A stretch of DNA of 64,000 nt, from the NCBI GenBank assembly GCA_000517565.1, contig CP007051.1, positions 1,540,001-1,604,000 on the forward strand, read 5' to 3'. The position numbers and the translations under genes were made by a program. Positions 53,929 through 64,000 of this stretch are shown piece after piece (the first letter of the stretch is position 1; the number at the start of each line of letters is the position of its first letter). The DNA is from Desulfurella acetivorans A63. Lineage in GTDB: Bacteria > Campylobacterota_A > Desulfurellia > Desulfurellales > Desulfurellaceae. Under the pieces are notes generated by a model. That model searched no databases. It saw only the letters and a list, made by a program, of their open reading frames with translations, and was not told the DNA's origin.

Positions 53929-54425
53929 TTATTTTCTTTTAAAAATTTTTTAAATCTTAATTTTTCAACAAAATTAATCCTGTCAACAAACAAAATGCCA
54001 TTTAAGTGATCTATCTCATGTTGAATAACAACCGACAAAAAATTATCGAACTCAACTTCTTGCACCTGTTCTTTTAAATCAAGGTATTGAACTTTTATAT
54101 ATCGCCTGCGATCGTTTACTTTTCCGTAAAAACCAGGAACACTCAAACAACCTTCATCATGTTCTTCATAAAAACTCTCATATGAAACAATTTTAGGGTT
54201 AACCATTGCTATTATGTTACTATTTGCACCAATTGCCCTTTCATCCACTATAATTATTCTTTTTTTTATACCTATTTGAGGTGCTGCAAGACCGATACCA
54301 TTGTTTTTTAACATGATCCGGCCCATAGAATCAATAAGCTCTAAAATACTATCATCAATCTTGTCAACTGCACTTGAAACTTTTTTTAGCTCTTTATCTG
54401 GATAAGTTAATATTTTATAATCCAT
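53925..54425 (-). CDS. def: peptide deformylase
   Basis: A 166-residue Fe/Zn enzyme removing the formyl group from nascent proteins. The three motifs are NNGIGLAAPQIG, DEGCLSVPG (metal Cys) and VVIQHEIDHLNGILF (HExxH). It is first in the def-fmt-lnt operon with its own consensus promoter and overlaps fmt by 4 bp. Confidence 0.95.
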   Translation of the reverse strand: MDYKILTYPDKELKKVSSAVDKIDDSILELIDSMGRIMLKNNGIGLAAPQIGIKKRIIIVDERAIGANSNIIAMVNPKIVSYESFYEEHDEGCLSVPGFYGKVNDRRRYIKVQYLDLKEQVQEVEFDNFLSVVIQHEIDHLNGILFVDRINFVEKLRFKKFLKENK

Positions 54426-54446
54426 AAAATCGTCTCCTTTTTTGAA

Positions 54447-54474
54447 ATTATACTTTTTTGTCTATCTAAGTCAA
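54447..54474 (-). promoter_or_regulatory. sigma70-type promoter for def-fmt-lnt
   Basis: On the minus strand TTGACT (54474-54469), a 16 bp spacer and a perfect TATAAT (54452-54447). Confidence 0.7.
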
Positions 54475-54506
54475 GAAAACATTTTTAAATAAATAATATA
54501 TAACAG

Positions 54507-54535
54507 TTGACTGATATTTAAATTTATGGTATATT
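54507..54535 (+). promoter_or_regulatory. extended -10 promoter for the nitronate-monooxygenase-like gene
   Basis: TTGACT (54507-54512), a 17 bp spacer and TATATT (54530-54535) with TGG directly before it. A perfect 10 bp palindrome TTTACGTAAA (54546-54555) follows at about the start of transcription and could be an operator. Confidence 0.65.
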
Positions 54536-54570
54536 TGATTTAACGTTTACGTAAAAAGAGGAGGAAGAGA

Positions 54571-55536
54571 ATGTTTGAAACACAATTTACAAAAGATTTT
54601 AATGTAGAATACCCTATTATGCAAGGTGGCATGATGTGGATTTCAAAAAAAGAACTTGTTAGCGCTGTATCAAATGCTGGAGGTTTGGGTATACTTTCTG
54701 CCCTTAGTTTTGAAACTCCAGAGCTACTTGCAAATGAAATTGAACAAACAAAAAAATTAACCACACGGCCTTTTGGTGTAAATCTTACATTTTTACCCAC
54801 ACTAAAGCCAGTAAATTACGATGCCTACATTGATGCTATAGTCCAAAGTGGTGTAAAAATAGTAGAAACTGCTGGCAGAAACCCTGCTGATTATATTGAA
54901 AAATTAAAAAACAATAATGTAAAAATTATACACAAATGTACATCAATTAGACATGCTATAAAAGCACAAAATATAGGCTGTGACTATGTCAGTATTGATG
55001 GATTTGAGTGTGCGGGTCACCCTGGTGAAGATGATGTAACTTCTTTAATCTTAATACCAAGAGCAAAAGATGAACTTAATATTCCTATTATAGCTTCAGG
55101 CGGTTTTGGCGACGCAAGAGGATTTGTTGCTGCATTATCACTAGGCGCTTGTGCAGTAAACATGGGTACAAGATTTATGATGACTAAAGAAGCACCTGTG
55201 CATGAAAACATTAAACAAGCATTACTTAACGCAAAAGAAACCGATACGGTTTTGGTAGAACGTAGTTTAAAAAATACACTTAGAGCTTTCAAAAATAAAC
55301 ACGCTTTAAAAGTTTTAGAATTAGAAAACAATAAAGCTACACTAGAAGAATTAGCTCCATATCTAAGCGGACTAAATGGTAAAAAAATGTTAGAAGAAGG
55401 TTCAATTGACAATGCTTTACTTGCATGTGGCCAGGTAATTGGGTTAATAAATGATATACCAACTACAAAAGAAGTTATAGTGAATATAATTAACCAGGCA
55501 AAGCAAATTATCGAGCAACAAGCCAGACTTATTTAG
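54571..55536 (+). CDS. nitronate monooxygenase / FabK-like FMN oxidoreductase
   Basis: A 321-residue TIM-barrel flavoprotein: YPIMQGGMMWISKKELVSAVSNAGGLGILS at the N-terminus, FGVNLTFLP, the substrate-site region DGFECAGHPGEDDV with the candidate catalytic His, and IIASGGFGDARGFVAALSLGACAVNMGTRFM for FMN phosphate binding. Both nitronate monooxygenases and FabK enoyl-ACP reductases share this fold, and I cannot separate them with certainty; the GHPGE block favours the former group. It is a single-gene unit with GAGGAGG and a terminator. Confidence 0.8.
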   Translation: MFETQFTKDFNVEYPIMQGGMMWISKKELVSAVSNAGGLGILSALSFETPELLANEIEQTKKLTTRPFGVNLTFLPTLKPVNYDAYIDAIVQSGVKIVETAGRNPADYIEKLKNNNVKIIHKCTSIRHAIKAQNIGCDYVSIDGFECAGHPGEDDVTSLILIPRAKDELNIPIIASGGFGDARGFVAALSLGACAVNMGTRFMMTKEAPVHENIKQALLNAKETDTVLVERSLKNTLRAFKNKHALKVLELENNKATLEELAPYLSGLNGKKMLEEGSIDNALLACGQVIGLINDIPTTKEVIVNIINQAKQIIEQQARLI

Positions 55537-55548
55537 CCTGGCTTTTTT
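55521..55548 (+). terminator. intrinsic terminator overlapping two convergent gene ends
   Basis: AGCCAG (55521-55526) and CTGGCT (55538-55543) with an 11 nt loop and a run of T to 55548. It overlaps the last codons of the upstream gene and of glcF on the other strand. Confidence 0.7.
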
Positions 55549-56783
55549 ATCCCTTCATATATAACTTCAATTGGGTGCATAACTTTGGTATCTAAGTTTT
55601 CTTTTATTAAAACATCACTAAGCTGCATAGCACACCCAGGACATGGAGTAAAGAGTTTCTTAAAACCTTTTTCTTTAATTTCCTGGGTTTTTGATTTCGG
55701 GATTTCACCTGAATCTTTATAATATTTTATGTTAAATGTTCCACCAAAGCCACAACAACTTTGATTTTCTAGACTTGAAAAGTCTTTTGCTATATTTTTG
55801 CTCATAAATTCTTTTAGCATATTGTCTTTTTCTCTTTCATAATGGCATGGTATGTGAAGTGTGGATTTTTCTTCTTCTTGAGGTTCTATATTTATAGACA
55901 ACACTTCTTTTAAAAACACAACTATATCCATCATAGGAACTTTTGCTTTTCTTTTGGTAATTTTTTGCCCCATATCATTTAAACCATACTGACATGTAGG
56001 ACAGGCTGTTATTATGTAGCTTGCGTCTTCAATTGAGTCAAACCAGTCTAGGTTTTTGTTTACCATCTGTTTGTATAGATCAAGATCTCCCATAGTGGCA
56101 GCAGGTATACCACAACATTTATTTGTTTTTGGTACATAAACACTTACACCGTAATAATTCAATACTTCTACTATAGCTTCTCCCCAGTTGGTATAAATGT
56201 ATGTTATTGCGCACCCTGGATAGAATATTACACGCATTTTTTCTTCTTTTGCTTTATTCAATCCACCATATTTGGAAGTAAAAGGTCTTGATTTTATAGA
56301 TACTATGTTTCTTTGCGAAAACTCTTTAAATAGGGGCTTGAACACATCTTCTTTAACCTGTTTTGAGCCAAATTTCAAACCAATGTGCATCAAAGGTGCT
56401 GTTTTTGCTACAAGAGTAGGTTTCTGCATGATAATTTTAAGCACAGCTTTCTGCCAGTTTGGAAGTTCTTTTATTTTTCGCAATATTGATTTTGCCCTTA
56501 AAAATATTTCATCTGTAGATACACCGCTTGGGCAGTACTGTTTGCACCTTGTGCACATTACACAGTAGTCTAGATGTTTAAATATCCTTTGTGCTTCTTC
56601 TATACGCCCTTCATATATCGCTTCAATTAAGGCAAGCTTGCCTCTTGCTACGGAAGTTTCAATTAAATCTTTATCGTATATGGGACAAACTGATTGGCAT
56701 GTACCACACTTTGAACATTGCATTATCAAAGGCTCTAGCTCTTTTAGTTCTTTTACTATTTCATCTACTTTATTATCCTTCAT
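55533..56783 (-). CDS. glcF: iron-sulfur subunit of a glycolate/D-lactate-type dehydrogenase
   Basis: A 416-residue protein with two N-terminal 4Fe-4S motifs (CSKCGTCQSVCPIYD and CVMCTRCKQYCP) and two CCG domains (KCCGIPAATMGD and SCCGFGGTFNIKYY, each with partner cysteines upstream), the GlcF/LldE layout. It passes electrons from the FAD subunit to the quinone pool. It lies 11 bp after glcD, and its stop overlaps that of the plus-strand gene by 4 bp. Confidence 0.85.
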   Translation of the reverse strand: MKDNKVDEIVKELKELEPLIMQCSKCGTCQSVCPIYDKDLIETSVARGKLALIEAIYEGRIEEAQRIFKHLDYCVMCTRCKQYCPSGVSTDEIFLRAKSILRKIKELPNWQKAVLKIIMQKPTLVAKTAPLMHIGLKFGSKQVKEDVFKPLFKEFSQRNIVSIKSRPFTSKYGGLNKAKEEKMRVIFYPGCAITYIYTNWGEAIVEVLNYYGVSVYVPKTNKCCGIPAATMGDLDLYKQMVNKNLDWFDSIEDASYIITACPTCQYGLNDMGQKITKRKAKVPMMDIVVFLKEVLSINIEPQEEEKSTLHIPCHYEREKDNMLKEFMSKNIAKDFSSLENQSCCGFGGTFNIKYYKDSGEIPKSKTQEIKEKGFKKLFTPCPGCAMQLSDVLIKENLDTKVMHPIEVIYEGIKKPG

Positions 56784-56794
56784 AAAGCGCCTTC

Positions 56795-58168
56795 TTATAA
56801 ACTCATTTTGTGAGGATTTAAAATATTTCCTGGGTCAAGCCCAAATTTTAGCTTTTTCATAAAAGCAATTGTGCTTTGTCCCACTTCGCTTTCCAAATAC
56901 TTTGCCTTGGCTATGCCAATACCGTGTTCACCGCTTAGTGTACCTTCGAGCTTAAGGGTTATTTCAAAGATTTCATCTATGGCTTTTTCTACCCTTTTCA
57001 TTTCTTCTTTATTGCGCTTATCCGTTAGGATTGTTGGGTGAAGGTTGCCATCACCTGCATGACCAAATGTACCAATAAGCAAATTATACTTTTTGGCTAT
57101 CTCGCTAATTGCCTGCATCATAGCTGGTACTTTGCTTCTTGGTACCGTTGCATCTTCCAGTATCAATGTAGGATTAAGCCTTGCAAGAGAACTTAGCGCA
57201 TCACGCCTTGCCTGCCATAAGCTGTCGCGCTCTAAGTCATCCTTTGCTATATAAATCTGGCCGCCTAAAGATTTGCATATATCTGCTACCTTTTTGTACT
57301 CATCTTCTACTGCAGCTTCATGTCCGTCTACTTCTATTAAAAGTATTGCTTGAGCGCTTGTTGGAAGACCCAGGTGGTGGTATTTTTCTACTGTTTGTAT
57401 AGTAAAGTTGTCCAATATTTCAAGTGTTGCAGGTACAATCTTTGAACTTATAATATCTGAGACAGTTTGAGAAGCTTTTATTAAATCATCGTAAACAACA
57501 AGCAGCGTTTTTCTTGATTGAGGTGGCGGTACAAGCTTTAGTATAAACTCAACCATCACACCAAGCGTACCTTCACTGGAAAGCATCAAACCAGGTAGAT
57601 TGTAGCCTGTTACAAGTTTTACAGGTTTTCCGCCACCTTTTATTAAATTGCCTTCATTATCAAAAAACTTTACACCCATTAAATAGTGGCTTGTTACACC
57701 ATACTTTAGAGCTCTTAGACCCCCTGAGTTTTCTGCTACATTTCCTCCAAGCGTGGATACCTTTAAACTTGCAGGGTCTGGCGGATAGAGCAGGCCTTTT
57801 TTGGCTACAGCGTCTGCAAGCTTTTGCGTTACTACACCTGCTTGAACTATAGCGTATAAATCATCTGTGTTTATATCAAGTATTTTATTAAAGCCAGTCA
57901 TTAACATCACACAACCACCACTAACAGGAAGTGTCCCTCCGCTTAAGTTTGTGCCACTGCCCCTTACAATCAAAGGTATAGAGTTTTCATTGCAAAGTTT
58001 TATAATCTGGCCTATTTGTTCATAATCATTGGGCTTAACCACAATATCGGGCGCTTTTGGCTCTTCTGGAAAAGCATCATAACTGTAGGCCATTGTATCT
58101 TCGATTTCACTAAAACAGTTTTGTTTTCCAACAATACGCTCAAACTCTTCAATCAAAACTTTCTGCAT
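56795..58168 (-). CDS. glcD: FAD-linked 2-hydroxyacid dehydrogenase, GlcD type
   Basis: A 457-residue flavoprotein with the FAD_binding_4 domain: PLIVRGSGTNLSGGTLPVSGGCVMLM, YPPDPASLKVSTLGGNVAENSGG and NLPGLMLSSEGTLGVMVEF. The C-terminal domain has IGTFGHAGDGNLHPTIL and LSGEHGIGIAK (metal-site His). It oxidises glycolate, D-lactate or a similar 2-hydroxyacid. The exact substrate is not determined. Upstream lie an MFS carrier and a FadR-type regulator. Confidence 0.87.
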   Translation of the reverse strand: MQKVLIEEFERIVGKQNCFSEIEDTMAYSYDAFPEEPKAPDIVVKPNDYEQIGQIIKLCNENSIPLIVRGSGTNLSGGTLPVSGGCVMLMTGFNKILDINTDDLYAIVQAGVVTQKLADAVAKKGLLYPPDPASLKVSTLGGNVAENSGGLRALKYGVTSHYLMGVKFFDNEGNLIKGGGKPVKLVTGYNLPGLMLSSEGTLGVMVEFILKLVPPPQSRKTLLVVYDDLIKASQTVSDIISSKIVPATLEILDNFTIQTVEKYHHLGLPTSAQAILLIEVDGHEAAVEDEYKKVADICKSLGGQIYIAKDDLERDSLWQARRDALSSLARLNPTLILEDATVPRSKVPAMMQAISEIAKKYNLLIGTFGHAGDGNLHPTILTDKRNKEEMKRVEKAIDEIFEITLKLEGTLSGEHGIGIAKAKYLESEVGQSTIAFMKKLKFGLDPGNILNPHKMSL

Positions 58169-58195
58169 AGGCTAGCCCTCCTAAAACCAACTAAT

Positions 58196-58232
58196 AAAAA
58201 AACCAAAGGCTTAGACTATTATAGCCTAAGCC
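58196..58232 (-). terminator. intrinsic terminator between the MFS carrier and glcD
   Basis: On the minus strand a 12 bp near-perfect stem, GGCTTAGGCTAT with ATAGTCTAAGCC (58232-58208, one G.U pair), is followed by TTTGGTTTTTTT. It separates the carrier from glcDF on the same strand and may let only part of the transcripts through. Confidence 0.75.
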
Positions 58233-58239
58233 GATAAAA

Positions 58240-59535
58240 TTAATATTGTTTTGCGCCTTGAGTTGCTTCTTTTGGCAACAGAGCAAGCAAGATAACAGAA
58301 ATCAACAAAGACACGCCTACAGCTGCTAATCCATAATAAACATTGCCAGTATGAGATTTTATAAAACCTATTATGTAAGGTGCAAAAAATCCACCTAAAT
58401 TTCCTATAGAATTTATTACTGCAATCCCAGCTGCAGCTGCTGCTCCTGATAAAAACTTGTTTGGCAGTGCCCAAAATGGTCCAAACGCAGCATATGCTCC
58501 AGCCGTAACTATTGATAATACTATTATTGATGGAGCGGGTGTTTTTATAAATAACATTGCAAAAATTGCTATAGAACTTACAAGCAAAGGAATTTGAGTA
58601 TGATAGCGCCACTCAGCTTTTTTATCCGCTGATGAGCCATTAACAACCATCATTATAGCTGCAAATAAAAATGGTATCATAGCTAAAAACCCAACTGTCT
58701 GAGCACTATAAGACTTTGACAAACCTTTTATGATTTGTGGCAACCAGAAACTTATTGAATATAATCCCATAATCAGTCCAAAAAAATAAATAAAAGCAAG
58801 CAACCACACACGTCCATTTTTCATAGCTTCACCCACTGTCATTTTTTGTTGTTTGGCTTTTTCTGCTTGCTCTTGAGCTATCTCATTTGTCAGCCAATCT
58901 CTTTCTTGTTGAGTTAAAAATTTTGCCTCAGATGGTTTGTTTGGCAAAATAAAGAAAGTTAATATGCCAAATATAACAGCTGGTGCTCCTTCTAATATGA
59001 ATAGCCATCTCCAGCTTTCAAGCCCAGCCCAATGGACATGATCCAATATGATACCTGATATAGGAGAGCCAATAACACTGGAAAACGCCAAAGCAGTCAT
59101 AAATAGAGCCACAGCCTGTGCAAGCTCACGCTGTGGGAACCAGTATGTTAAAAACAAAATAACACCAGGAAAAAATCCAGCTTCTGCAAGACCCAATAAA
59201 AATCTAGCAATATACAGATGCACTGGTGAATTTGCAAAACCAGTTAAAGTAGCAACAAAACCCCAAATTACCAAAATTAATGATATCCAAACCCTTGCGC
59301 CAATTTTGTGTAACATTAAATTGCTTGGCACCTGAAATATCAGATAACCTATAAAAAAAATACCAGCAGCAAAACCGAATTGTTCAGCGCCTAATCCAAG
59401 ATCCTTGTTCATTTTTAAAGCGGCAAAACCTAAATTAACTCTGTCTAAAAAATTAATAACATACAACAAAAACATGTACGGTATTAAAAACCGTTTTACC
59501 TTTGAAATAGCACTTTTTGCAACGGCTTCGGCCAT
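58240..59535 (-). CDS. MFS transporter, anion:cation symporter type
   Basis: A 431-residue, 12-helix carrier: LIPYMFLLYVINFLDRVNLGFAALKMNKDLGL in helix 1, then ARFLLGLAEAGFFPGVILFLTYWFP, the signature of the ACS (organic acid) group. The long central loop contains the usual EAKFLTQQERDWL. The likely cargo is a hydroxy acid such as lactate or glycolate, judged from glcDF downstream; that is inference. The ATG at 59535 is chosen because AGGAGG lies 5 nt before it. Confidence 0.82.
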   Translation of the reverse strand: MAEAVAKSAISKVKRFLIPYMFLLYVINFLDRVNLGFAALKMNKDLGLGAEQFGFAAGIFFIGYLIFQVPSNLMLHKIGARVWISLILVIWGFVATLTGFANSPVHLYIARFLLGLAEAGFFPGVILFLTYWFPQRELAQAVALFMTALAFSSVIGSPISGIILDHVHWAGLESWRWLFILEGAPAVIFGILTFFILPNKPSEAKFLTQQERDWLTNEIAQEQAEKAKQQKMTVGEAMKNGRVWLLAFIYFFGLIMGLYSISFWLPQIIKGLSKSYSAQTVGFLAMIPFLFAAIMMVVNGSSADKKAEWRYHTQIPLLVSSIAIFAMLFIKTPAPSIIVLSIVTAGAYAAFGPFWALPNKFLSGAAAAAGIAVINSIGNLGGFFAPYIIGFIKSHTGNVYYGLAAVGVSLLISVILLALLPKEATQGAKQY

Positions 59536-59552
59536 ACACACCTCCTAAAAAT

Positions 59553-59571
59553 TGGTCTAATAATCAGACCA
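59553..59571. promoter_or_regulatory. operator-like inverted repeat before the MFS carrier
   Basis: TGGTCT and AGACCA with 7 bp between them, with partly symmetric flanks. It lies just downstream of the predicted transcription start. The FadR-type regulator encoded next door is the obvious candidate to bind it; TGGTC half-sites are common for that family. Confidence 0.6.
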
Positions 59572-59580
59572 TTGTCTAAA

Positions 59581-59608
59581 ATTATAGTATTTTTTTATTA
59601 AATGTCAA
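59581..59608 (-). promoter_or_regulatory. consensus sigma70 promoter for the MFS carrier
   Basis: On the minus strand perfect TTGACA (59608-59603) and perfect TATAAT (59586-59581) with a 16 bp spacer. The start of transcription would be near 59574, at the edge of the inverted repeat. Confidence 0.8.
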
Positions 59609-59686
59609 CTGAATTTTTAAATTATTAACTCATATATTGATCTTATAATTTATGAAAGTTAAAATAAAAACAGAAATAAATTATCA

Positions 59687-60415
59687 TTAAATGTTTTGCT
59701 TGTTAAATTTGTCAAGGTAATTTTTAAATTCTTGGTCTATAAAAGAAAGGTGTTTTGACATACTTTGTTTTGCAAGAAAAGGATCATTTTGTAAAATTGC
59801 ATCTAACACAGCTTTATGTTCAAGTAGCAACTCTCTTTTTGATAAGCCTTTTATTTTTGTGACGTATTCTCTGCCTACTTTTACAGTATCCTTTAGCAGG
59901 TTAAAAATCGACATCATCATATGGTAAAGTACAGTGTTTTTTGAAGCTCTAATGATAGATAAATGAAACTCTGCATCTTCGTATTCACCAGAATTTGATT
60001 TATTGCTTATTTTTTCTAATTCTAAATAAGCTTCGCTAACACATTTTTTTGACTCTTCATCGGCATTTTTTGCTGCCATCTCAACTGCCCAAACTTCAAG
60101 TGTTTTTCTAATTTCCATAAGCTCCCAGGTTAACCTTGGGTCTTTAACAAGTAAATTGTCAATACCCTTTAGTATATCTTCTCCAACAGATTTTACAAAT
60201 GTGCCATCACCCTGAATACTTTCAATCAAACCTTTTGCTTCTAAAATATTTAACGCTTCTCTAACAGAACTTCTGCTTACTTCAAACATCTTAGCCAAAT
60301 CACGTTCTGAAGGTAATTTTTCATTAGGTTTTAAAATACCATCTTTTATATAAAGCTCTATTTGATCCACGATTTCTTCTGAGATCTTTTTTTGTCTAAT
60401 TGGTTTGAAAATCAT
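59687..60415 (-). CDS. GntR/FadR-family (FCD) transcriptional regulator
   Basis: A 242-residue regulator. The N-terminal winged helix reads ISEEIVDQIELYIKDGILKPNEKLPSERDLAKMFEVSRSSVREALNILEAKGLIE in family style; the C-terminal FCD domain has the metal-binding pattern DAEFHLSIIRASKN and LLEHKAVLDAILQND. Close relatives (LldR, GlcC) control lactate or glycolate genes, which fits the position. It would bind the inverted repeat at 59.55 kb. It follows the TetR gene by 13 bp. Confidence 0.87.
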   Translation of the reverse strand: MIFKPIRQKKISEEIVDQIELYIKDGILKPNEKLPSERDLAKMFEVSRSSVREALNILEAKGLIESIQGDGTFVKSVGEDILKGIDNLLVKDPRLTWELMEIRKTLEVWAVEMAAKNADEESKKCVSEAYLELEKISNKSNSGEYEDAEFHLSIIRASKNTVLYHMMMSIFNLLKDTVKVGREYVTKIKGLSKRELLLEHKAVLDAILQNDPFLAKQSMSKHLSFIDQEFKNYLDKFNKQNI

Positions 60416-60428
60416 ACCATTATTTAAT

Positions 60429-60995
60429 TTATTCTTTTTTTGTTATACATAATTTACATATTGTTTGAGCCAATTCTTCGGACCTTGACGACAAAGAATA
60501 AGATTTATTGTTCAAACGCCATTTAAGTCCGTTGAAAATTATGCTACCCAAAATGATATCAGCAATAACCTGATTTTGTGGGCAATCATTAATTAAATTA
60601 ATAATATTTTGCCTATAATCAAATACAATTTTTTGCAATTTTTCTTTTTTTTGAATATCACCAATATGAATTTCATCAGAAAAAACCATTACGGGAAGAA
60701 CTTCGTTGTTTTCAACCATTTTAAAATGCTCATTTATAAGCTTAAAAATTCTTTCATACAAATTATCTTCTTTTTCTGCTGTTTTTATAATATTATTCAA
60801 AAGGATTTCTATATTATCCAGAAAATACAATATTAGTTCGTCTCTATTTTTAAAGTATTTATAAATTGCTGGTTGCGAAACTTGCAATATACCAGCTACC
60901 GCTTTTGTTGTTACATTATTAAAACCTTTTTGAGCTGCAATTTTACCTATAGCTTTAAATACTTCATTTTTTCTTTCTTGTTTTGACTTTCTCAC
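60429..60995 (-). CDS. TetR-family transcriptional regulator
   Basis: A 188-residue protein with an N-terminal TetR helix-turn-helix (VFKAIGKIAAQKGFNNVTTKAVAGILQVSQPAIYKYFKNRDELILYFLDN in family style) and a variable ligand-binding C-terminal domain. The GTG at 60995 is used as start; the neighbouring ATG is followed directly by a stop. The -10 box ends only 8 bp upstream and there is no ribosome site, so the mRNA may be leaderless. It probably forms an operon with the FadR-type gene. Confidence 0.82.
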   Translation of the reverse strand: MRKSKQERKNEVFKAIGKIAAQKGFNNVTTKAVAGILQVSQPAIYKYFKNRDELILYFLDNIEILLNNIIKTAEKEDNLYERIFKLINEHFKMVENNEVLPVMVFSDEIHIGDIQKKEKLQKIVFDYRQNIINLINDCPQNQVIADIILGSIIFNGLKWRLNNKSYSLSSRSEELAQTICKLCITKKE

Positions 60996-61002
60996 ATGAT
61001 TA

Positions 61003-61031
61003 ATTATAAACTTTTTTTAACCTCTTGGCAA
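61003..61031 (-). promoter_or_regulatory. sigma70-type promoter for the TetR-FadR regulator operon
   Basis: On the minus strand TTGCCA (61031-61026), a 17 bp spacer and a perfect TATAAT (61008-61003). Confidence 0.65.
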
Positions 61032-61038
61032 ATGTTTT

Positions 61039-61806
61039 TTAATCGCCTTTTAATTTAAATTCCCATTTAATCATCTCATCTTTTACTGATTGAGCATCAT
61101 TTGCATTTGGTAGCAACGCAAGGTAGATGTTCATATGAGAAATTGCTTTTTGATAATCTTGCACTTGAGCATACAACAAAGCTATATCGTGATGTAGATT
61201 TGGATTAAATGGATTACTTTCTATCACACTATTTAATTGTTCTATGGATTTATCTAACTTGTTTTCCTGATAATACACTTGAGCGTGTATAACAGTTTTT
61301 TTAGAATTTTCATTAAGTTCTACTGATGAGGAATTTTTTGCAATAATGTTTGCTACAATCGAGCATATTTGCGATTGTTTATTAGCATCAAACCACAGCC
61401 ATTGACCATTTGGGTCAACTTCCAAAAAATAATAATCTTTACTGTCGTATAAAAAATCAAGCTTCCCAAAATGCAACTTTAATTCATCCATAAACTTAAA
61501 TATATTTTTATACCAAAATTCTTTTTCAATATATTCTTCATAATCTGATAATTTTTCTTGCTTTATCAATAGATCATGTTTTAATGAGGGCTTTCTCCAT
61601 AAAACCTTTTTAATGTTAGAACTATTCGTAATTCTGCCAATTGGGTCTTTAATTTCAAAACCGCTATTATTTAATAAAATAATATTGTAATTTTCAAAAC
61701 AATCTGAGTTAAGTCTAAATAAATTATTCTCTCCAATATAATAAATCAGCATATCAATTGTCGTATCAAATATAGTAGAATAAATTAATAGATTAAAACA
61801 AGCCAA
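61039..61806 (-). CDS. graspetide-type ATP-grasp ligase remnant or variant fused to TPR repeats
   Basis: The N-terminal part (LLIYSTIFDTTIDMLIYYIG, LFRLNSD, then VLWRKPS) matches the pre-ATP-grasp domain of MvdC/MvdD-like ligases that make ester or amide rings in graspetides. The end of the ATP-grasp domain follows almost at once: LDFLYDSKDYYFLEVDPNGQWLWFD. The roughly 170-residue middle that holds most of the ATP site is absent. About 2.5 TPR repeats fill the C-terminus (residues about 160-255). No ATG precedes the conserved part; TTG at 61806 fits the family N-terminus, and the open frame extends to a TTG at 61866. It lies directly after the peptide gene. Confidence 0.6.
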   Translation of the reverse strand: MACFNLLIYSTIFDTTIDMLIYYIGENNLFRLNSDCFENYNIILLNNSGFEIKDPIGRITNSSNIKKVLWRKPSLKHDLLIKQEKLSDYEEYIEKEFWYKNIFKFMDELKLHFGKLDFLYDSKDYYFLEVDPNGQWLWFDANKQSQICSIVANIIAKNSSSVELNENSKKTVIHAQVYYQENKLDKSIEQLNSVIESNPFNPNLHHDIALLYAQVQDYQKAISHMNIYLALLPNANDAQSVKDEMIKWEFKLKGD

Positions 61807-61821
61807 GCCCAATAGCTTGGC
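61795..61821 (-). terminator. hairpin between the peptide gene and the ATP-grasp-like gene
   Basis: On the minus strand GCCAAGC (61821-61815) and GCTTGGC (61808-61802) form a perfect 7 bp stem with a 6 nt loop, followed by TTGTTTT. It begins 8 bp after the peptide stop. It resembles the leaky terminators that keep RiPP precursor levels above those of the enzymes. Possible TTG starts of the next gene fall in the loop and the 3' arm. Confidence 0.65.
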
Positions 61822-61828
61822 AATAATT

Positions 61829-62020
61829 TTAAGTATCTGCTTTGCTTGTAGAACTTTCGCCGTCAAATATTGTTGAGCTTTTTGTGCTCCAATTAATCAA
61901 ATCAAAATTTGACCCTATAAAACGTCTTTGTTTTTTGAAATTGTAATCGCCCGTTTCTTTAACCAAAGTTTTAACACTAACATTCTCTTTCTGCCTTGCA
62001 AAATATTTTAAGGTTTTCAT
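61829..62020 (-). CDS. putative RiPP (graspetide-like) precursor peptide
   Basis: A 63-residue peptide with a strong AGGAGG 5 nt before its ATG. The N-terminal part is basic and has KYFARQKEN, which recalls the PFFARFLE leader motif of microviridins. The C-terminal third (NWSTKSSTIFDGESSTSKADT) consists mostly of Ser, Thr, Asp, Glu and Lys, the residues joined by ATP-grasp ligases into omega-ester or omega-amide rings. It is followed by a hairpin and then by the ATP-grasp-like gene. There is no transporter or protease next to it. The assignment is an inference from motif and context. Confidence 0.6.
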   Translation of the reverse strand: MKTLKYFARQKENVSVKTLVKETGDYNFKKQRRFIGSNFDLINWSTKSSTIFDGESSTSKADT

Positions 62021-62265
62021 ATGAGCCTCCTAATTTATTACTTAAATAAATTGAAATTTAATTCAGGTCAAATTATTTTTTTATTGTAATTTCAACTTAA
62101 ATTAATTTTTTTAATCATAAATATATAATACATGGTTAACTATTTTTTTTAAACTTAATTATTAACTTTTATTTTAAATTTTTTTAAAAAAATTTCTTGA
62201 CACTAAAAATAAATTCTTATATTATTTTAAAAGAGAAATATAAAATTATACAAAGGGGGGATAGA
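62021..62265. other. A/T-rich divergent intergenic region
   Basis: The longest gene-free stretch in the window (245 bp). It holds the peptide ribosome site on one side and the acs promoter on the other. On the minus strand TTGACC and, 17 bp later, TATTTA lie before the peptide gene, but the -10 is poor. I see no small gene or RNA structure in the middle part. Confidence 0.6.
62197..62225 (+). promoter_or_regulatory. sigma70-type promoter for acs
   Basis: Perfect TTGACA (62197-62202), a 17 bp spacer and TATTAT (62220-62225). The leader of about 34 nt contains AAAGGGGGG before the ATG at 62266. Confidence 0.75.
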
Positions 62266-64000
62266 ATGAACGGTCAGACTTCAAAAGGTGACGATTTATT
62301 AATCAAAACATCAGAAGAGTTTCTTCAAAAAGCTAACTTAAATCCGAAGCTTTATGAAGAATACATTCAGTGGGCCAAAAACGATTGGGAAGGCTTTTGG
62401 GATTATTTTGGAAAAAATGAAATTACATGGTTTGAACCTTTCAAAAAAGTATTTGATGATTCAAATGCTCCATTTTATAAATTTTTTGTAGGTGGAAAGT
62501 TAAATATTAGCTATAATTGCATAGATAGGCACCTTTCTACATGGAAAAAAAACAGAGCCGCTATAATATGGGAAAGTGAAATAGGCGAAAGCAAAACAAT
62601 AACATACAGAGAACTCTATTATCAGGTTAATAAATTTGCAAATGTTTTAAAAACTTTAGGTGTTAAAAAAGGCGATAGGGTTGTTCTTTATATGCCAATG
62701 ATAGTAGAGCTTCCCATTGCTATGCTTGCATGTGCTAGAATTGGAGCTATACACAGTGTAGTTTTTGGCGGTTTTTCGCCAGCTGCACTAAAAGAGCGCA
62801 TACTTGATGCAAACGCAAATGTAATAGTAACAGCAGACGGCGGAAGAAGAGGTGGTAGAGCCATACCGCTAAAAGATAGCGTAGACGAAGCAATTAAAGA
62901 TTTAAAAAACATAAAATATGTGGTCGTTGTAAAACACATAGGCAGAGATGTTTTTATGAAAACGCTCAGGGATTTCTGGTGGAATGACCTCATGAGTGAC
63001 CCGGATTATGCTAAAAACTATTGCGAACCCGAAGTTATGGACTCTGAAGATCCGTTTTTTTTGCTTTACACTTCAGGATCAACTGGAAAGCCAAAAGGCG
63101 TTTTACATACAACTGCTGGTTATTTAATATGGAGAATTCTAACAGCTAAATGGGTATTTGACTTAAAAGACGAAGATACATTCTGGAGTACAGCCGATTT
63201 AGGTTGGATATCTGGGCATTCATATACATTGTATGGTCCATTGTCAGTAGGTTCAACAACATTAATTTACGAAGGGATTCCTATTTATCCAGATCCAGGC
63301 CAATGGTGGCGCTTAATTGAAAAATATAGTGTAAATGTCCTATACACAGCACCAACTGCCATCAGGGCACTTATGAAATATGGCGAAGATTACCCTAAAA
63401 AATACAATTTATCTTCTTTAAGACTTTTAACAACAGGCGGAGAAAGGCTAAATTCAGCTGCCTGGTTGTGGTATTACAAAAATGTAGGTAAAGAAAAATG
63501 TCCTATAATAGATGCATATGGCCAAACGGAAACAGCAGGCCACATGCTCTCATCTTTGCCAATATTACCACAAAAACCTGGTTCTGTAGGTATTCCCGTA
63601 CCTGGTGCGTTCCCGGAAATTGTTGACGATGAAGGCAATATAATAACTGAACCATACAAAACAGGCAATTTAGTATTTACAAAACCATGGCCATCAATGG
63701 TCAGAACACTCTGGCAAAATGACGAATTATACAAAAAAACTTACTGGAGCGCATTTGATGGTAAATATTACTTAACAGGAGATATTGCATACAAAGATGA
63801 AGATGGCTATTTCTGGATGGAAGGCAGAATTGATGATGTTGTAAATGTTTCGGCTCATAGAATAGGGTGCGCTGAAATTGAAAATGCACTTACAAGCTAT
63901 CCAGCCATTGCTGAAGCTGCTGTCGTTGGTGTACCAGATGATGTCACAGGCGAAGCGATTTTTGCATATGTAGTTCTAAAAGAAGGCGTAGATTTAACAC
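62266..64000 (+). CDS. acs: acetyl-CoA synthetase (AMP-forming), 5' part
   Basis: The first 578 codons of a gene running off the right edge; the family is usually about 640-660 residues. The frame is open throughout. Motifs: [46 protein letters not shown], the ATP/AMP-binding P-loop [45 protein letters not shown] and the hinge region [20 protein letters not shown]. The Lys of the final acetylation motif lies outside the window. It activates acetate to acetyl-CoA with release of AMP and PPi, the entry point for acetate oxidation together with citrate synthase at 34 kb. Confidence 0.95.

Follow-up and report, generated by a model that had tools for sequence, protein, structure and literature searches.

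The closest described systems to the locus considered here are the graspetide synthetases of the MvdC/MvdD/SAV_5884 group (NCBIfam TIGR04185, TIGR04184 and TIGR04187; solved relatives 5IG9, 5IG8, 7M4S and 7MGV). In the ligase MdnC, the leader is bound by a hairpin of the middle sub-domain (PMC8939145, PMC7823629, PMC5934393). Among the papers searched, none named graspetide pseudogenes. The stretch analysed here (the window) comprises 64,000 nucleotides of Desulfurella acetivorans A63 and contains, on the minus strand at 61039-61866, an open reading frame of 275 codons, uninterrupted by stops, which joins two ends of such a ligase to tetratricopeptide (TPR) units. Comparison with related genomes indicates that this frame is very probably a pseudogene, left when a graspetide (omega-ester/amide RiPP) operon decayed and deletions fused its fragments. 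A described close relative of D. acetivorans is D. multipotens, at 98.6% ANI (PMC5317093).

The reference for this reading is an intact operon in Desulfurella amilsii (genome G001; L023:3862-9099, minus strand), where five whole genes encode a 63-aa precursor, a 321-aa ATP-grasp ligase and proteins of 297, 350 and 710 aa, the last four reading frames overlapping by a few bases. It occupies the same site as the window locus, with an acyl-CoA synthetase on one flank and TetR, GntR and MFS genes on the other; the TetR-type regulator, intact in the window (60429..60995, minus strand), is the conserved neighbour there in each of the three Desulfurella genomes. In common with the MvdC/MvdD/SAV_5884 group, the D. 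amilsii ligase adjoins a short Ser/Thr-Asp/Glu precursor, and it gives a full-length match to TIGR04185 and TIGR04187 (E ∼ 1e-24, residues 6-298) and matches the MdnB/MdnC-type solved structures 5IG8, 5IG9 and 7M4S by sequence. Measured against the curated equivalog cut-offs, however, even the intact family falls far short, and a PFFARFL-type motif is missing from its leader. The 710-aa protein has TPR and PDZ domains and a lipoprotein-like N-terminus, whereas the 297-aa protein has no match in Pfam or NCBIfam. The window locus resembles this operon in position, in its precursor (67% identical) and in its remnants (71-72% protein identity), but whereas D. amilsii has five whole genes, the window has the precursor alone whole.

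When the window frame was aligned with the D. amilsii ligase, residues 3-97 (71% identity) and 252-298 (72%) matched, confirming the description in the earlier note of a ligase with its ends kept, its middle absent and its frame intact. The two matches abut directly in the DNA, which leaves 154 residues absent. All pieces lie on the minus strand: the N-terminal (pre-ATP-grasp) remnant at 61510..61791, the junction of the first deletion, D1, at 61508..61511, and the remnant of the C-terminal strand block (residues 252 to ∼293) at 61383..61508. D1 removed 462 bp (154 codons, residues 98-251) in frame relative to the D. amilsii ligase, and the in-frame deletion that the earlier note had offered as the origin of the gene thus holds. 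The second junction, D2, at 61374..61382, marks the loss of ∼3.8 kb, from the end of the ligase as far as residue ∼594 in the gene for the 710-aa TPR protein; the 297-aa gene also lay within this span, the 350-aa gene has left no trace in the window, and the two donor sequences in D. amilsii have a short A/T-rich stretch in common. The TPR domain that was described as following the ligase is indeed present, but it is not a ligase domain: it is the C-terminal ∼115 residues, with two TPR units, of the former separate gene for the 710-aa TPR/PDZ lipoprotein (61039..61373), and its match to that protein is restricted to residues 594-708 (72% identity). In profile searches of the window frame, NCBIfam recovers only the C-terminal block of the MvdC/MvdD/SAV_5884 maturases (E 5e-9 to 9e-8); the TPR hit from Pfam covers residues 196-262.

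The start of the gene is also damaged. The ligase begins with ATG in both D. amilsii and the second Desulfurella genome compared (G002); at the equivalent window position, 61792..61794 on the minus strand, the codon is AAT, so that the start is lost, and downstream no ATG occurs before codon 39. The TTG at 61866 is a mechanical start. The frame reported earlier, 61039-61806, starts from a different in-frame TTG, which lies within a hairpin; the in-frame TTGs upstream of the lost ATG include two within this hairpin (61802-61821). Further, the last strand block, earlier described as well kept, has lost a catalytic residue, the metal-binding Asn being replaced by Asp (FLEV-D-PNGQW in the window compared with FLE-x-N-PNGQ in all four intact ligases compared), so that E-V-D stands in place of the E-x-N motif. 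Compared with the MvdC/MvdD/SAV_5884 group, therefore, the window copy has no residues 98-251 of 321, and hence no complete ATP-grasp fold of central and C-terminal sub-domains; it has neither its start codon nor the metal Asn, and it is fused to a foreign TPR fragment. It retains the adjoining precursor gene (61829-62020), which is conserved in five loci.

These losses bear on the idea, raised in the earlier note, of a new class of ATP-grasp enzyme that lacks the central domain, binds the leader and recruits a partner through TPR. The open frame is the one point in its favor. The ATP-binding Lys region and most of the active-site segments are absent, the E-x-N metal motif is mutated, and searches of the genus, the order, the class and 386 sampled genomes gave no second example; we regard the probability of such a class as close to nil. 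Neither the fusion nor the same missing segment occurred among 41 + 386 relatives searched (genus, order and class, and the 386 sampled genomes). A search of assembled genome contigs for the same architecture gave a TPR match as its sole result, in a Syntrophaceae MAG (L022:3812-5353). The matching protein is distantly related to the 710-aa protein (24% across residues 199-705), and another copy lies close by; no match to the D. amilsii-type ligase was found in that stretch. A search of viral contigs for the same architecture yielded none. Both other genomes of the genus carry the ATP-grasp middle, intact in D. amilsii and lesioned in G002, and it is this finding in orthologues that the earlier note had itself named as decisive against its proposal.

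Alternatively, the fusion might have no catalysis but still work as a scaffold, holding the precursor and bringing in a partner via its TPR units. Several points favor this: the frame was maintained across two deletions, the adjoining precursor frame is intact, the TPR piece seems mildly constrained, and TPR is the sole confidently folded part of the structural model. In that model (a single run without an alignment; mean pLDDT 50), residues 211-275 (TPR) reached 66-86, whereas the ligase part stayed below 55, which counts against a scaffold only weakly because the model was folded without an alignment. D1, however, removes the ATP-binding Lys region together with the segment aligned with the leader-binding hairpin of MdnC: E191/D192 (PMC7823629) align with stretch 176-190 of the D. 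amilsii ligase, within the part that the window copy has lost. A peptide-binding scaffold, as the earlier note proposed, is therefore unlikely. The relic therefore has no catalytic centre and, by analogy with MdnC, would have no leader-binding site of that type, with the qualification that the precursors here are without the PFFARFL motif. The lost ligase start codon, the neutral ratio of substitutions in the precursor and ligase parts (see below) and the same architecture in no orthologue also argue against a scaffold, and we consider it very improbable.

To place the deletions in the history of the genus, the window was compared with G002, the closest genome to it (flanks 97% identical, operon remnants 94%). 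In G002 the ligase middle is kept, at 67% identity to the D. amilsii ligase over residues 3-246, although frameshifts and in-frame stops interrupt it; the ligase end is lost, a small piece of the 350-aa gene survives, and what is left of the TPR gene, which also contains stops, starts near residue 613. A deletion shared with G002 from a common ancestor was considered and rejected, as an ungapped comparison placed the window junction at residue ∼594, ∼20 codons further upstream than the ∼613 of G002. Because these TPR breakpoints differ, the breaks in the window and in G002 are independent, and since each kept what the other lost, their common ancestor had a longer locus that decayed separately in both lines. 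Decay of the operon is recent and ran in parallel in the window lineage and in G002. The same comparison bears on an assembly error, in which the true genome would hold an intact operon that was collapsed during assembly. Although the junctions are known from the assembly alone, one collapse cannot explain why a single locus shows two separate deletions, an N-to-D catalytic change and the loss of its start codon, and collapse needs long direct repeats, whereas the D2 junction shows short A/T-rich identity only. Further, the genome is rated 100% complete in 2 contigs, and the separately assembled G002 is broken here too, at other places. An assembly artefact is accordingly extremely improbable.

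If the operon is a relic, selection on its remnants should be relaxed. Between the window and G002, dN/dS ratios were near-neutral for the precursor (0.79) and the N-terminal part of the ligase (0.92), with wide confidence intervals on these single values, compared with 0.22 for TetR, 0.11 for MFS, 0.07 for GntR and 0.06 for the acyl-CoA synthetase. Pooled counts of nonsynonymous to synonymous changes were 21:6 for the precursor and ligase remnant and 16:58 for GntR, MFS and the synthetase (Fisher p = 7e-7). When changes were polarised with D. amilsii, the window branch carried 12 nonsynonymous and 4 synonymous changes in the precursor and ligase, about a neutral ratio. The TPR piece carried 2 nonsynonymous and 4 synonymous changes on this branch; these very few events hint that it was constrained for longer than the precursor and ligase. 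Compared with D. amilsii, all ratios were low (0.07-0.20) because of a long functional past. Overall, the locus combines lesions that would inactivate the gene relative to intact orthologues (two deletions and the loss of the start codon) with relaxed selection on the precursor and ligase remnant.

The 63-aa graspetide-like precursor (61829..62020, minus strand) is still open. Its block K-S-x-T-x-F-D-G-E-S is kept in five of five precursors and would fit a graspetide core, with its hydroxyl donors and acid acceptors; in D. amilsii the putative core reads SxKSSTMFDGES. Three queries, namely the window protein, the intact D. amilsii ligase and TIGR04187, found no second MvdC/D-type ligase anywhere in the genome, and therefore the open precursor is left without a partner. 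Between precursor and ligase lies a terminator-like hairpin (61802..61821, minus strand; stem GCCAAGC, loop tattgg, stem GCTTGGC, then a T-rich tail). A hairpin is found at this point in all five loci (window, L023, L024, L045 and L046), its position being more conserved than its sequence, which varies by lineage; this common position makes it probably an attenuator that sets the ratio of precursor to ligase. No known RNA families were found in window positions 54000-64000. On the other side of the precursor, before the promoter of the divergent acyl-CoA synthetase gene, a perfect 20-base A/T palindrome (AAATTTTTTTAAAAAAATTT) is present at 62176-62195, and G002 has it too. Outside the phylum of the window, two genomes (G136 and G273) have related clusters (L045:7701-8914, minus strand, and L046:5833-8725, plus strand). 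Relative to D. amilsii, the precursor is 59-61% identical, with a nearly identical core block, and the ligase 53-55%, and an ABC transporter follows; there, the 564-aa transporter stands in for the three exported proteins of D. amilsii. The sporadic spread of these precursor/ligase loci suggests horizontal transfer.

We therefore propose the following history, which rests on comparison of sequences. The ancestral 321-aa ligase would have cross-linked Ser/Thr and Asp/Glu side chains of the 63-aa precursor to give a graspetide product, and the three exported proteins encoded downstream (297, 350 and 710 aa) would have acted on or with it. In the window lineage, the 462-bp deletion took the central domain of the ligase. 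The ∼3.8-kb deletion took its end together with the two genes that followed and the greater part of the TPR gene, and the start codon and a metal ligand of the ligase mutated. The frame would have survived both deletions by chance, and the fragments therefore read as one protein, which is probably now functionless. Two observations run counter to this: the hint of constraint on the TPR piece, and the fact that both deletions keep the frame, leaving 275 codons free of stops; two frames would be kept by chance about 1 time in 9. There is a slim chance that the relic has been co-opted, being translated from a TTG, with selection maintaining its TPR units as a small module for protein binding that may still be tied to the intact precursor.

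The pseudogene reading removes the false lead of a new class of ATP-grasp enzyme and indicates that deletions in a dying RiPP operon can yield a convincing in-frame chimera. A useful by-product is the intact graspetide-type precursor and ligase operon of D. amilsii, an acid-tolerant sulfur reducer, which pairs precursor and ligase with three exported proteins, including a TPR/PDZ lipoprotein, and with no ABC transporter.
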